The position numbers were made by a program, and so were the translations under genes. This document shows, piece after piece, positions 602-7,300 of a stretch of 64,000 nt of DNA. A model generated the notes under the pieces. It was not told the origin of the DNA. It searched no databases and was given only the letters and a program-made list of their open reading frames with translations. Numbering within the stretch: position 1 is the first letter of the stretch; each line of letters starts with the position of its first letter. This DNA comes from Thermoplasmata archaeon. GTDB taxonomy: Archaea > Thermoplasmatota > Thermoplasmata > Thermoplasmatales > Thermoplasmataceae. Location of the stretch: assembly GCA_021850545.1 (NCBI GenBank), contig JAJZLU010000044.1, forward strand, positions 38,894 to 102,893. The letters run 5' to 3'.

Positions 602-660
602 CCACGATGATGAATTCAGCCTAGTCTGATAGGATGATGAACGACGGGCAGACTGAGTGG
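602..660 (+). ncRNA. C/D-box sRNA (2'-O-methylation guide), unannotated
   Basis: CCAC stem (602-605); C box ATGATGA (607-613); 12-nt guide; D' CTGA (626-629); C' ATGATGA (634-640); 12-nt guide; D CTGA (653-656); closing GTGG (657-660). Confidence 0.88.
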
Positions 661-828: not shown

Positions 829-1782
829 GTGGTTGGCATAGAATATATAACGTTAATTGAAACGCTCCTGCAGTACTTCTTCGTTGTGGGATTGTCTCCG
901 CTTTTTGCAGGCATATTCCACAGGGCAAAGAGTATTATTGAATCCAAGAAAGGACCAAGCATTTTCCAGCCATATTACGACCTTGCTAAGTTATTGAAAA
1001 AAGAGACCTTGAAGCCGTCAGGTTCCGGAATAATTTTCATCTATGCACCATATGTGGCATTCGGCATTTACTCCCTGATTTCCATAATTATCCCTGTTCT
1101 CATCCCCGCCCCTATTTACTTCACAGCTTCCGCGGACTTTCTTGGTGGGGCTATCATGTTTTCCCTTGCAGCTTTTGTCAAGGTTGCTGCAGCCATGGGA
1201 AGCAACAGCAACTACTCTGCCCTTGGGGTTTCCAGGATGCTTTCATTCAACTTCCTCTCGGAAGGTACCCTAATAACTGTCTTTTTTGCAGTTTCCCTGA
1301 TCACAGCAACAAACAACCCCTATACAACAAACCACTTTCTGGCAGCCAATCCCCTCCAGAACATTTCTATTGTCCACATTTTCTCCACACTCGCTTTCTT
1401 CATGCTGTTTCTCTATGAGACCGGGAAGTTGCCTCTTGAGAGCGCAGGGCTCCAGGAGCTCGGGATGATTGATGAGGCTGCAAATTATGAGTACAGCGGA
1501 AAATTGCTTGCCATAAACAAGTGGAACAGCTACATCAAGCAGTATCTTCTTGGGTCAGTACTCCTGAATGTTTTCCTTGTCCCATGGGGACTCAGTGCGG
1601 CATCTCCCTGGTTCCTCCTCGATATTCCAGTGATGTTTGCCAAATGGTTACTGCTTATTGGAATAGTGCTTGTTGTGGAGACGACCCTTGCCAAGCTGAG
1701 GCTTTTCAGGGTACTGGACTACCTCGCAACAGCCTTCACATTTTCCATACTTTTCCTGATATTCACTGAGGTGATTGTATGA
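829..1782 (+). CDS. Energy-converting hydrogenase/complex I-like membrane subunit (HyfC/HycD/NuoH family)
   Basis: 317 aa multi-spanning protein; GPSIFQPYYDLAKLLKKE and LPLESAGLQELGMIDEAANYEYSG motifs; GTG start. Confidence 0.85.
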   Translation: MVGIEYITLIETLLQYFFVVGLSPLFAGIFHRAKSIIESKKGPSIFQPYYDLAKLLKKETLKPSGSGIIFIYAPYVAFGIYSLISIIIPVLIPAPIYFTASADFLGGAIMFSLAAFVKVAAAMGSNSNYSALGVSRMLSFNFLSEGTLITVFFAVSLITATNNPYTTNHFLAANPLQNISIVHIFSTLAFFMLFLYETGKLPLESAGLQELGMIDEAANYEYSGKLLAINKWNSYIKQYLLGSVLLNVFLVPWGLSAASPWFLLDIPVMFAKWLLLIGIVLVVETTLAKLRLFRVLDYLATAFTFSILFLIFTEVIV

Positions 1783-2426
1783 GCACTTTTGTGGAAGAGT
1801 TGCTGTTTCCTCTCTCAAGCCTCATTCTGGTCACTGCATTTTACATGCAGGGGCAGGAATTCATAAGGCCGATGATACGCGGGCAGCTGGTCCAGTCAAT
1901 TCTCCTCGCAGTGATATCGGTCATGATGGGAATAATAACTGGTGATGCGGCATCCATCATCCTGGCTGCACTCCTTGTGGTACTGCGGGGATTTCTGATT
2001 ACATATTTCCTTGAGAAGGGGATCATGAAAAGCCAGGTGCACCTTCACGAGAAGCATGTGAGCGTTGCCTACCTTTTCCTCATCAGCCTTATATTTGTGC
2101 TTACGGCAGTCCTTATTGTCTATTCGGTTGTATTTTCTGGCATCAGGACAGAGTCAATTACGGGAAACCAGGGAATTCTGGTATTTCCGCTTGCTCTCTT
2201 CTTTCAGGGGCTTTTCCTGATAGCTTCCAGGAGAACCACTTACGCACAGATCATGGGATACATAGAGGAGGAGAATGCAATTGTGCTCTTTGCAGTGTTT
2301 CTCCTCCCAATACCTCTACTCATTGAGGCCAGCGTTTTCCTCGACGTGCTTGCCCTGGTTGTAATCTCTTCTGTAGTAGTGGTAGAGAAGTTCACCCACG
2401 AAAGGGTGGTGGAGCTGAGAGGATGA
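1779..2426 (+). CDS. HyfE/NuoK-like membrane subunit
   Basis: 215 aa membrane protein overlapping both neighbours; Y(I)EEENAIVLFAVFL motif; operon position. Confidence 0.75.
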   Translation: MSTFVEELLFPLSSLILVTAFYMQGQEFIRPMIRGQLVQSILLAVISVMMGIITGDAASIILAALLVVLRGFLITYFLEKGIMKSQVHLHEKHVSVAYLFLISLIFVLTAVLIVYSVVFSGIRTESITGNQGILVFPLALFFQGLFLIASRRTTYAQIMGYIEEENAIVLFAVFLLPIPLLIEASVFLDVLALVVISSVVVVEKFTHERVVELRG

Positions 2427-3769
2427 GCCTGGTTTTCATTCTCCTGATAATTACGCTCATACTCCCGCTGCTCTCCTACCTTGGGTACTTTTCAAGGGTG
2501 CCGAGGCTCGACAATGCAATATCTCTGGCTAACGTTGCCCTGGCCCTTTACCTGTATGAGTTCATTCCATACGCGGGGCCGTTCTATGTTGATTTCACAA
2601 CATGGGTATTCATTCTCATGGTGACATCGATCCATCTTCTGTCCCAGGTCTATTCCAAGAGTTACTTCAGGAATCAGGAGATCTGGATCGGGGAGAACCT
2701 GTTCAATCTTCTCCTGGCCCTATTCACCACTTCAATGCTCTTCTCCCTGGAGATAAACAACCTTGGACTGATGTGGGTTGGCATTGAAGCCACCACTATT
2801 TCATCAGCGCTTCTGCTCATGACGGAGAAAACAGAAACCTCCGCGGAAGCCACCTGGAGATATATTGTAATTGTGTCTGCAGGTGTAACATTTGCCTTCA
2901 TCTCAATCATTCTCATCTATTACTCAATCGGGACCCTTCAGATCTCATCAATTCTTGCCATGAAGGCTGTCCCTACACTTACGCTGAATGTAGCAGTTGC
3001 CATAGCCCTCATAGGCTTTGGGACAAAAGTAGGAGTGTTCCCCGTGCATACATGGCTTCCAGACGCTCATAGTGAAGCCCCATCTCCAATAAGCGCCATG
3101 TTTTCCGGGGTACTCCTACCAACTGCATTATACGTACTTTATAGAATTTATGAAATTGACCCGTTGAGGGACCTGTTTGTATGGGCGGGTGTCATATCTG
3201 TCATTGCAGCGTCACTGTTCCTGGGGTACCAGACACGTTACAAGAGAATGTTTGCCTATTCCACCATGGAAAACATGAATATTGCGCTGGTGGGAATGGC
3301 TGTTGGAGGGCAATATGGCCTGATCGGGGCTTTGCTCCTACTCCTTTCCCACAGTTTCGGAAAGGCTGGTGCTTTCTATTCGTCAGGAAGCATCCTGAGA
3401 TACACCGGAAACAAGATGATCGATGGCGTCCGCGGACTCTGGAAATCCATGCCTGAAACCTCAAGCGCCCTTCTCCTCTCATCATTTGCCGTCACTGGGA
3501 CCCCTCCTTTCGGGACGTTCTTTGGCGAATTTCTCATATTCTATTCACTTTTCACTGTGCATTATTATGCACAGCTTGTGCTGCTGCTCTTCTTCGTCAT
3601 GGCCGCATTCATTTCCGTCAATTACAACATAACAAAGATGGTCTTTCACGGGGAAGCTGAAAAGAATGGGGAAGAGGAACCGGTCATGTCGGGCCTTGCA
3701 CTGCTTTCCTCCGCAATTCCCCTGCTCATTGGAATCATTTACGTGGTGGTGACTATCGGTGCATTATAA
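2423..3769 (+). CDS. HyfF/NuoN-like proton-translocating antiporter subunit
   Basis: 448 aa; LMWVGIEATTISSALL, KVGVFPVHTWLPDAHSEAPSPISAMFSG. Confidence 0.88.
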   Translation: MSLVFILLIITLILPLLSYLGYFSRVPRLDNAISLANVALALYLYEFIPYAGPFYVDFTTWVFILMVTSIHLLSQVYSKSYFRNQEIWIGENLFNLLLALFTTSMLFSLEINNLGLMWVGIEATTISSALLLMTEKTETSAEATWRYIVIVSAGVTFAFISIILIYYSIGTLQISSILAMKAVPTLTLNVAVAIALIGFGTKVGVFPVHTWLPDAHSEAPSPISAMFSGVLLPTALYVLYRIYEIDPLRDLFVWAGVISVIAASLFLGYQTRYKRMFAYSTMENMNIALVGMAVGGQYGLIGALLLLLSHSFGKAGAFYSSGSILRYTGNKMIDGVRGLWKSMPETSSALLLSSFAVTGTPPFGTFFGEFLIFYSLFTVHYYAQLVLLLFFVMAAFISVNYNITKMVFHGEAEKNGEEEPVMSGLALLSSAIPLLIGIIYVVVTIGAL

Positions 3770-4928
3770 GTTTGGAGAACCTGCAGGAAGATACCTCGGC
3801 CCAGGAGGCGGATACCATGTGTACTCTGGTAGCATTTCGGAAGCAGCCCCACAGGGATACGGGGACATTCACGTGCACAAAATGGCGGCGGGGGAGTTCA
3901 ACTTCCAGTATGGGCCCTCCACAGGAGGCCTGATGGAATCTGTTGGAATCAGCCTCACCACTCCCGGGGAACTGATCAATTCTGTTGGCGTTGACCCATA
4001 CTTCAAAGCAAGGGAGCTGAAGCTTAAGGGGCAGGGCATTGAAACAGCCCTTCTCATGGTTGAAAGGATCAACGGCTTTCATGCCGCAAGCAATTCATTG
4101 GCTTTCCTCATGGCAGTGGAGGATGCACTTGGCATCGAAACCAGCGAGGAGGTGCAGAAGGCAAGGATACTGCAGCTCGAACTTGAGCGCATAAGGAGCA
4201 ACCTTGAGGTCATGAAAAGGATGTGCGAACCAGCAGGATTTGGCGTCCCTACAAATCAGCTTGGGTACCTGAGGGAGAAGGTCTCACGGATAATTTCATC
4301 GGCATCAGGACACCGTTTCTTCTTTGGAGTTAATGCCCCAGGCTATGCATCAATTGCATATTCTGGAATTAATGAAAAACTCAATGTGGCCAGGCAGGAG
4401 TTTGAAAGGATATTTTACGCGCTGCTGGAATCAAAGATATTCCTCAACAGGCTTCAGAACAATGGGGTAACTAAGGACCAGTTCCTTAGCGGCCCTGCTG
4501 CCAGGGCTTCCGGCCTGAGATACGACTCACGGCTAGACTCAGGGCTCCTTCCATACGGTGACACACCTTTCTTCCCGGCAGTAAGGGAGGAAAAGGACTG
4601 CTTCGGCAGGTTCAGCGTAAGAGGTGAGGAGATCCTGAACTCAATCGACATCATTGCATCACTTGGCAACCTCAGGGAAACGGATAGGCATGTAAGCAAA
4701 GCAGGGGATGGGGAGGGCTGTGCCCGGCTGGAAAGTCCCCAGGGGGACATCTTCTATTATGTGAAGATCAGGGACGGCAAGCTGGAGGACATCTGGCACG
4801 TATCTCCAGGAGTGCTGAATGTAAGGGCATTCCAGGAATCCATGAAGGGGAACATATTCACTGACTTCCATTTCAACTGGGAAAGCTTCGGCATATGGAT
4901 ATCAGAAATCGGGGTGGTCATCAGATGA
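3759..4928 (+). CDS. NiFe-hydrogenase/NuoD-like large subunit lacking Ni-binding cysteines (HyfG-like)
   Basis: 389 aa NuoD/HycE-like fold; L1 region reads ERINGFHAASNSLAFLMAVEDALGI and the C-terminus has no CxxC. Confidence 0.8.
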   Translation: MHYKFGEPAGRYLGPGGGYHVYSGSISEAAPQGYGDIHVHKMAAGEFNFQYGPSTGGLMESVGISLTTPGELINSVGVDPYFKARELKLKGQGIETALLMVERINGFHAASNSLAFLMAVEDALGIETSEEVQKARILQLELERIRSNLEVMKRMCEPAGFGVPTNQLGYLREKVSRIISSASGHRFFFGVNAPGYASIAYSGINEKLNVARQEFERIFYALLESKIFLNRLQNNGVTKDQFLSGPAARASGLRYDSRLDSGLLPYGDTPFFPAVREEKDCFGRFSVRGEEILNSIDIIASLGNLRETDRHVSKAGDGEGCARLESPQGDIFYYVKIRDGKLEDIWHVSPGVLNVRAFQESMKGNIFTDFHFNWESFGIWISEIGVVIR

Positions 4929-5548
4929 GCAACTTCTGGTTTGGCGAAGGCCTCCGGAAAGGGAGAAAAACAGAGAAATTCCCACTTGCCCCGCCTGAGG
5001 AGCCACCCCTTTGGCCATCTTACCTTGACGGGAACGCAGAGCCATACTGCCCGACAGAAGCTATAAAGGAAGGCATGTGGGACCCCGGCAGGTGCATTTT
5101 CTGCAGGCTATGCGAGCCCCAGTACAAGCCCACAGGGAAACAGGGCATATTCCAGGTGAGGAAAACCCAGCCGTTGCTGAAGAAGTCTTTCTACATTTAC
5201 AAGCTGGACAGCGGTGCCTGTGGGGCATGCAATGTGGAACTTGGAACCATATTCGATCCCCAGTACGACGCAAACAGGCTCAACATTTTCATGACGAATA
5301 CTCCTCGGCATGCCGACGCCATCGTTGTAATGGGCGTACAGACGGAAAGGATGAAGGAAGCCCTGAAGAATGCTTATGAGGCCATGCCTGAACCTAAGCT
5401 GATCATCTCCCTTGGGGCATGTGCTATTTCAGGGGGAATCATTGGGAAATCGCCAATGGAGAGGGAACAGTACCATGTGGAGATAGCAGGTTGCCCCCCT
5501 TCGCCTTACACAATACTTGAGGCCTTATCAAGGGCCAGGGGTGTTTGA
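4925..5548 (+). CDS. Fusion of one-cluster ferredoxin segment with NuoB/HyfI-like small subunit
   Basis: YCPTEAI...CIFCRLC followed by GACGACNVEL...GACAIS...GCPPSP; start taken at MSNFWFG downstream of the listed ORF start. Confidence 0.82.
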   Translation: MSNFWFGEGLRKGRKTEKFPLAPPEEPPLWPSYLDGNAEPYCPTEAIKEGMWDPGRCIFCRLCEPQYKPTGKQGIFQVRKTQPLLKKSFYIYKLDSGACGACNVELGTIFDPQYDANRLNIFMTNTPRHADAIVVMGVQTERMKEALKNAYEAMPEPKLIISLGACAISGGIIGKSPMEREQYHVEIAGCPPSPYTILEALSRARGV

Positions 5549-7300
5549 TTGCTTTCCTACATCGCCATAGCAATACTGGGCATTTCTGCACTGGCGGGCC
5601 TGTACTGGAAGCGCGGGGCATACTTTGGGATTATGGCTGGCTCTGCCTATTTTGCATGGTCGGGTTTCAACCCATTGGACCAGATGAGTTATTTCATACT
5701 CATTGCCTGCATCGTATGGATCCTGGTTTCGATCTACTCCATTTCCTATGATAAACACTATGGCAAGTGGCTTGCCTCTTCACTGGCCCTCATGATAATG
5801 GGTATGATGGCCATACTCCAGTCCACAAATTACCTTCTGCTCATAACTGGGTGGGAGACCATGTCCATACCTGCATATGTCATAGTCGGGATGAACAAGA
5901 AGGATAGCGGGCCTGCTTTCACTTTCATGATGTTCAGTGAATTCAGCACTATCCTTATTGTGGCTGGCGCGGCATACGCATTCTTCTCAACTGGAACCAT
6001 AGACTTCTCGCTGAGTGCATCTTATGGCCCATTGCTTCTTATTTCACTGGGCGCACTCATCAAGATGGGAATGACGCCGTTCATGATAAGCGAATGGCTT
6101 CCCATTGCCCACGGGAACGCACCTGCAAATGCTTCAGCGGCCTTGAGCGCGACCATGACGCTCATGGGCGTTTACGTCATAATGAAGATGATCCTGCTCA
6201 GCCCGGATGTTATCTGGATAGGGTATCTCTTCCTTGCCATAGGATCCATCTCCATCCTTTTCGCTTCCATATATGCATACATTTCTGAGAACATGAAGAT
6301 GCTCGCGGGATTCAGCACAATAGAGAACAATGCTGCAATCCTGTCTGCAATGGGGCTATACCTTGTCGCTTCTGAGCCAGTGCTAAGGCAGTTCATCTTC
6401 ATGACAATAATCATATTCGCTATGGCTCACTCAATCTCCAAGACAGGGCTGTTCTTTTCCATCGGAAACTCACCTGGGGAGTACTTCGGTGAGAGTGATC
6501 ACCCGACGTCCTATACTCAGAGGGTGGGGACAATGCTTACCACCATGTCACTCTCAGGGCTGTTCCCGACTCTTGGCGGACTTGCCACATGGATGCTTCT
6601 CGAGGCATTTTTCATGGAGGCTTACTCAGGGGGCGCCCCTGGAATGAGTGCCATAGTGATTGGTTCGGTAATTGCACTTGGGGAAGGCATGGCCACAGGC
6701 TCAATGATGAAAATCCTGGCATTCGGAAACCTCTTCCGCAGGGGCCTGGGCAGGAAGCAGGAGCCAAATCAGGCCATAATATCAGGAATTGGCATGCTGC
6801 TCATCTTCCTCTTCGCAATTTCCATCTTCATAGTATCAGGCCTGTTCATTTCAGGAATACCTGGGGTTCTTGTCTTCAACGGCTTCATGATCACTTCACG
6901 GTTTGGGGCCGCTGACTTCGGCCTTATCTCTCCAGATTATGTTTTAATGCTCATCACTGTTTTCTCGCTTTTGGCCTATGCCGTTTTCAGGAAACCGAGG
7001 CTGAGGGAAGTTCCGGTCTGGAACGGGGGTTCTGTTGAAGTGGACTCATACACCTCATACGCCTATTCCAACAACATACGCTTAATGCTGAGGAGAGTCC
7101 TGCGGACTAAGGCCGGCGCATTTGGGAGCGCTGTTACGGTCATAGATGTGTTCTGGCTCATAATGAATGACATTGGAAAGGGATACAGGGCAGTGAGCAA
7201 ATTCATCACCCTTAGGATCATGAACAGTTCGATCAGCTGGTATATGATCTACATGATTGCGGCTTTCATGGTCATAATGATAATTGCGGTGGAATTCTAA
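5549..7300 (+). CDS. HyfB/NuoL-like antiporter subunit
   Basis: 583 aa membrane protein; GWETMSIPAYVIVG, GMTPFMISEWLPIAHGNAPANASAALSATM; TTG start. Confidence 0.85.
   Translation: MLSYIAIAILGISALAGLYWKRGAYFGIMAGSAYFAWSGFNPLDQMSYFILIACIVWILVSIYSISYDKHYGKWLASSLALMIMGMMAILQSTNYLLLITGWETMSIPAYVIVGMNKKDSGPAFTFMMFSEFSTILIVAGAAYAFFSTGTIDFSLSASYGPLLLISLGALIKMGMTPFMISEWLPIAHGNAPANASAALSATMTLMGVYVIMKMILLSPDVIWIGYLFLAIGSISILFASIYAYISENMKMLAGFSTIENNAAILSAMGLYLVASEPVLRQFIFMTIIIFAMAHSISKTGLFFSIGNSPGEYFGESDHPTSYTQRVGTMLTTMSLSGLFPTLGGLATWMLLEAFFMEAYSGGAPGMSAIVIGSVIALGEGMATGSMMKILAFGNLFRRGLGRKQEPNQAIISGIGMLLIFLFAISIFIVSGLFISGIPGVLVFNGFMITSRFGAADFGLISPDYVLMLITVFSLLAYAVFRKPRLREVPVWNGGSVEVDSYTSYAYSNNIRLMLRRVLRTKAGAFGSAVTVIDVFWLIMNDIGKGYRAVSKFITLRIMNSSISWYMIYMIAAFMVIMIIAVEF

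Follow-up and report, generated by a model that had tools for sequence, protein, structure and literature searches.

The window, i.e., the whole stretch of 64,000 nucleotides that was analysed, originates from a Thermoplasmata MAG. At its left end, a cytidine deaminase-like gene (PF00383) is located on the minus strand at positions 91-528. This gene is the divergent neighbour of a small RNA locus on the plus strand at positions 602-660 and is regarded as context only. The sRNA locus is preceded by an AT-rich, TATA-like block, aaattcaaaata, at positions 569-580 of the same strand and followed by a fluoride riboswitch on the plus strand (RF01734, 43.3 bits, positions 749-823), which is situated directly upstream of a hydrogenase/complex-I-like operon (positions 829-7300; NADHdh, Proton_antipo_M, Complex1_49kDa, and Oxidored_q6). 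Sequence comparison confirmed positions 602-660 as encoding a predicted double-guide box C/D sRNA of approximately 60 nt.

In detail, a terminal stem is formed by the 5' strand CCAC (602-605) and the 3' strand GTGG (657-660), after which a T-rich stretch follows. Enclosed by this stem and read on the plus strand are a C box ATGATGA (607-613), the D' guide ATTCAGCCTAGT (614-625), a D' box CTGA (626-629), the spacer TAGG (630-633), a C' box ATGATGA (634-640), the D guide ACGACGGGCAGA (641-652), and a D box CTGA (653-656). Sequence and coordinates reported in a first-pass annotation matched the letters exactly on re-reading, and both pairs of boxes, the two 12-nt guides, and the terminal stem are present as described there. 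C and C' boxes conform to RUGAUGA, and D and D' boxes to CUGA. A search of the 64-kb window for the two-box-pair pattern at the spacing observed here gave one match, and none was obtained in 100 dinucleotide-preserving shuffles. The free-fold energy of the sRNA is unremarkable (z -0.67), as expected of a C/D RNA, with structure confined to the 4-bp stem and the boxes. A gene encoding fibrillarin, the methyltransferase, is present in the host genome (E 3.3e-56).

Conservation of the sRNA in the Thermoplasmata

Positions 560-720 of the window (161 nt) were used as query for a DNA search against 100 relatives. Most strong homologues share nearly the same boundaries, at about query positions 41-102 of 161. 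Due to the fact that these ends coincide with the terminal stem, positions 602-660 are considered to be the conserved unit. Copies in the relatives exhibit RTGATGA and CTGA boxes, guides of mostly 12 nt, and a C'/D' spacer of varying length. Among the named relatives with the sRNA are Thermoplasmata MAGs, Thermoplasmatales UBA447, and DHVE2/Aciduliprofundum MAGs.

In an alignment of 31 homologues, both CTGA boxes and the TGATG of the C box are invariant and the C' box is conserved. The terminal stem, which encloses the C and D boxes and is predicted to support a k-turn, is paired in 97.6% of its cells. Three of its four pairs show changes on both sides, the column pair 3/58 being observed as A-U, C-G, G-C, and U-A, and both sides are changed in 10 cells versus 1.3 in shuffles. 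The assignment to the archaeal C/D-box sRNAs is thus supported by the box pattern, the shuffles, the class-wide conservation, and the covariation of the stem.

A covariance model built from the 31-sequence alignment was applied to a sample of 400 genomes of the class, 335 of which gave matches. Guides were read in several dozen of these matches, comprising close as well as distant relatives. In the readable primary matches, the D guide has the form GAYRGGC, which is missing from two weak second matches in G014 and G030 (L219 and L220). The D half-pattern TGATGA-N1-3-GAYRGGC-N2-4-CTGA was found in 125 out of 390 genomes of the phylum, some of them outside the class, and its reversed control gave 0 matches among those listed. 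The covariance model and the guide pattern would enable annotators to find the sRNA gene.

Guides and their predicted 16S rRNA targets

The core of the D guide (641-652), GACGGGC, is complementary to GCCCGUC of the 16S rRNA (E. coli 1401-1407), and the base located fifth before the D box faces C1402 in E. coli numbering. The flanking mismatches mentioned in the first-pass annotation, which had considered this target tentative, are real: in the lineage of the window the duplex comprises only 7 contiguous pairs, and an A-C mismatch is located three bases away from the D box. The window copy alone thus falls short of the guide match of at least 9 bp that had been asked for, but the comparison with relatives overrides this shortfall. 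Complementarity in a single genome was not used as evidence, since shuffling yielded guides that matched no worse than the D guides of the relatives in 44-50 out of 400 cases. Due to the absence of rRNA genes from the window MAG, 16S sequences of relatives were used. Helix 44 is not covered by those obtained from the same genus, and the D target of the window species itself is predicted from its family.

The assignment is based on covariation at 16S position 1404. Considering the 43 genomes for which both partners were available, 1404 and the opposing guide base occur as C/G in 31, as U/A in 11, as U/G, a wobble pair, in 1, and as C/A in none. Of the 12 genomes with a changed 16S base, 11 hence show the matching change in the guide, and the twelfth a wobble. 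Relatives with the 16S sequence GCCUGUC, i.e., with U at position 1404, nearly all carry the guide GACAGGC or GATAGGC. An exception is given by the G137 lineage, in which U in the 16S rRNA faces a guide G and which therefore represents wobble and not compensation. Where the guide is GATGGGC, G1405 of the 16S rRNA is unchanged and is paired by wobble.

A 16S tree was built with position 1404 masked; at least 6 changes in the 16S rRNA and 5 in the guide map onto it. Independent pairs over the starred branches were concordant in 4 cases, discordant in none, and without difference in 1; the corresponding sign test (p 0.125) is not significant due to the small number of independent pairs. When independent evolution of the guide was simulated on the 16S tree by a simple two-state model, with the rate set to five changes, none out of 20,000 runs was as concordant. 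The target formerly proposed, 16S GCCCGUC with N+5 on C1402 in the decoding site, is thereby strongly supported for the D guide by guide/16S covariation. Target predictions for archaeal C/D sRNAs are often derived from short complementarity alone; repeated compensatory evolution of a guide and the decoding site constitutes independent evidence for a C/D target.

U at position 1404 was observed in the 16S rRNA of several Thermoplasmata lineages, represented by G017, G020, G023, G036, G048, G063, G066, G069, and G072, as well as in G075, G094, and G137. With U at position 1404, the pair C1404-G1497 would become a U-G wobble, and universal 16S primers that cover about 1391-1406 would be mismatched. 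These natural C1404U ribosomes are marked for study.

The D' guide (614-625) is predicted by complementarity to address helix 27 of the 16S rRNA (AAGGCUGAA). In close relatives the D' guide ATTCAGCCTTG(T) pairs with helix 27, GCAAGGCUGAAA, over 10 to 11.5 units, G-U being counted as half. These long matches occur in genomes G013, G016, G017, and G018, and shuffled D' guides reach such values in 0-9 out of 400 cases. The N+5 nucleotide is the first G after the GCAA loop of helix 27, equivalent to E. coli G902. In the genus of the window, the D' guide mostly contains A instead of T and forms 8 contiguous pairs with helix 27 of same-genus 16S rRNA, and a rival site near 16S position 597 attains, with 8.5, about the same score. 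No true compensatory change was found between the D' guide and helix 27. The D' guide is best assigned to G902 in helix 27 of the 16S rRNA; this target is probable in the family as a whole, with less certainty in the case of the window species. If this reading is true, lineages with the D' guide TTCAGCCT are expected to carry Gm902.

The D' guide of other genera and families differs or has degenerated, with the D guide being retained. In case of L209, L213, and L215-L218 (genera g10, g18, and g19), A/T-rich D' guides are accompanied by the D' box ATGA and the C' box TGATTA. Judged from these sequences, the D' half appears to have lost its guide function, with the D guide intact. A compensated D' guide, TTCAGTCTT, had been predicted for genomes with G903A in helix 27, but none was present in G014, G022, and G023, which carry this change and the D' guides of which are A/T-rich. 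L178, L193, L198, and L186 (families f24 and f33) share an alternative D' guide core, AACCCAGC, for which a candidate 16S site is located near position 1356 in G237 and G288; the D' guide may have been retargeted in these two families. Candidate 16S sites were also found for some D' guides of other families, e.g., in G310 with 10 pairs.

Proposed function and known counterparts

Positions 602-660 very probably encode a double-guide C/D sRNA of about 60 nt, the D guide of which would direct methylation to C1402 and the D' guide, most likely, to G902. Upon transcription, the sRNA would most likely assemble with fibrillarin and with L7Ae and Nop5, the latter two being expected in any archaeon. 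The D guide would then base-pair with the 3' end of the 16S rRNA, and fibrillarin would 2'-O-methylate C1402 in the decoding site, located on the P-site side of helix 44. Most likely, G902 of helix 27 would be methylated as well, directed by the D' guide. One might tentatively speculate that selection for Cm1402 in the Thermoplasmata is strong enough to preserve the D guide when the other guide decays or changes its target, and to re-tune it whenever the otherwise conserved base 1404 mutates to U, and that, by also holding helix 27, the sRNA may coordinate the maturation of the decoding centre.

In part of the order, the strands addressed by the two guides surround the decoding centre, and the D duplex is short, which would also fit a chaperone of 30S assembly that mainly holds the strands of helix 27 and helix 44 at the decoding centre. 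We regard this function as unlikely, because guide lengths of mostly 12 nt, the canonical spacing, and the placement of N+5 at a position known to be methylated in bacteria, eukaryotes, and P. abyssi (PMC11542601) are in line with methylation. Furthermore, the D' guide is different or degenerate in many lineages in which the D guide stays, so bridging is not the conserved function. Even less probable is that the main conserved target of the D guide is located elsewhere, in a tRNA or the 23S rRNA, with the 16S match being incidental. With two tRNA genes of its own genome (L023 and L030), the D guide reaches 8 contiguous pairs, one more than with the 16S rRNA in the lineage of the window, and its single-genome match to the 16S rRNA is not significant. 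However, nothing comparable to the tracking of 1404 by the guide was seen for tRNAs. The best tRNA matches, 8 pairs for the D guide and 6 for the D' guide over 30 of the 45 tRNA genes of the genome, were judged to be chance.

Regarding methylation of C1402 as the preferred function, both the kind of RNA and the modification site are known; new are the class-wide family and the repeated co-change of guide and rRNA at the decoding site. Archaeal box C/D sRNAs are characterized by RUGAUGA/CUGA boxes, double guides, and the N+5 rule (PMC7994747, PMC4644070), and share boxes, 12-nt guides, a short C'/D' spacer, a terminal stem, and rRNA targets with the window sRNA. In the Rfam check recommended by the first-pass annotation, only the fluoride riboswitch and no C/D family reached its gathering cut-off. 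The best C/D match was sR60 (RF01309) with 37.5 bits and E 1.1e-7, which has the same D' guide core, UUCAGCCUA, and an unrelated D guide (GGGAGUGACGGA). Due to a score below the gathering score of 50 bits and the differing D guide, the window sRNA was not assigned to sR60. Neither was it assigned to SNORD43, the model of which weakly touches positions 629-683 (17.8 bits, cut-off 45).

The 2'-O-methylation equivalent to C1402 is listed for plants, human, yeast, algae, and P. abyssi (PMC11542601). In Pyrococcus abyssi the equivalent of E. coli Cm1402 is 16S Cm1369, a methylation of the same position in an archaeon (PMC11542601). Plant U43 and yeast snR70 guide the C1402 equivalent (PMC11542601, PMC8307265), the 18S sites being Cm1703 for SNORD43/U43 and Cm1639 for snR70. 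In bacteria, Cm1402 is made by RsmI, a protein enzyme that yields the same product without a guide RNA (PMC5053481). The covarying D guide suggests that a major archaeal class relies throughout on an RNA guide for this modification, for which bacteria use a protein and eukaryotes use snoRNAs. Eukaryotes employ separate snoRNAs for the two sites, whereas here a single RNA would serve both. Yeast Gm1126 is presumably the equivalent of G902, by a count on the yeast 18S rRNA. The respective yeast guides are snR70 for Cm1639 and snR41 for Gm1126 (PMC8307265, PMC5199042). Predictions for helix 44 were relatively sparse in the seven archaea considered by Dennis et al. (PMC4644070). No paper on C/D sRNAs of Thermoplasmata was found in the open-access literature, most subscription papers being outside that search.

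Promoter-like block, second copy, and neighbouring genes

At -38 to -27 before the C box, 42 distinct homologues have an A/T content of 74-90%, compared to roughly 40-57% just upstream; their downstream flank is T-rich. The A/T-rich block fits an archaeal TATA box of a transcript that would start close to the stem; its counterpart in the window, at positions 569-580, is likely the core promoter of the sRNA. The conservation of this block distinguishes the family from archaeal C/D sRNA genes in general, only about 20% of which have been reported to possess a TATA-like motif (PMC7994747). A sigma-70 promoter scan was set aside as not applicable to archaea.

The cytidine deaminase gene adjoins the sRNA in L031, L033-L035, L041, L043, L045, L047, L055, and L061, representing several genera. 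A tRNA gene is also located beside the sRNA in several genera, and in the genome of the window a tRNA-Pro(TGG) gene is situated just upstream of the window. A second sRNA copy with identical guide cores occurs in the same MAG (G000:C16:7136-7194). The window sRNA might accordingly be a decayed or silent copy with the functional one on contig C16, but we consider this highly improbable, as boxes, stem, and guides of the window copy are all intact. Furthermore, the C16 copy (L061, 2404-3100) has its own tRNA and cytidine deaminase cassette, and its flank shares 83% identity over 2 kb with G011, a genome from another genus, and about 75% with the window. Given this cassette and the G011-like flank, C16 seems to be mis-binned or to reflect duplication of the cassette, and not to hold the one true copy; a mis-binned contig from a related genus appears likelier than a true paralogue.

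The adjacency to the hydrogenase-like operon described in the first-pass annotation is correct for the window and for some relatives, but in others, e.g., L128 and L134, the operon is located more than 3 kb away from an intact sRNA. The association is positional only, and no functional link is indicated. That the boxes are a chance arrangement or part of the operon's leader, as their location 5' of the operon might suggest, is practically negligible and already refuted by the lack of matches in shuffles, the class-wide conservation, and the intact sRNAs of L128 and L134.

The fluoride riboswitch travels with the operon. Riboswitches before or near the operon were also observed in L033, L036, L039, L041, L128, and L134. 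A fluoride-responsive switch in front of a proton-pumping complex, and not of crcB, is worth a closer look.
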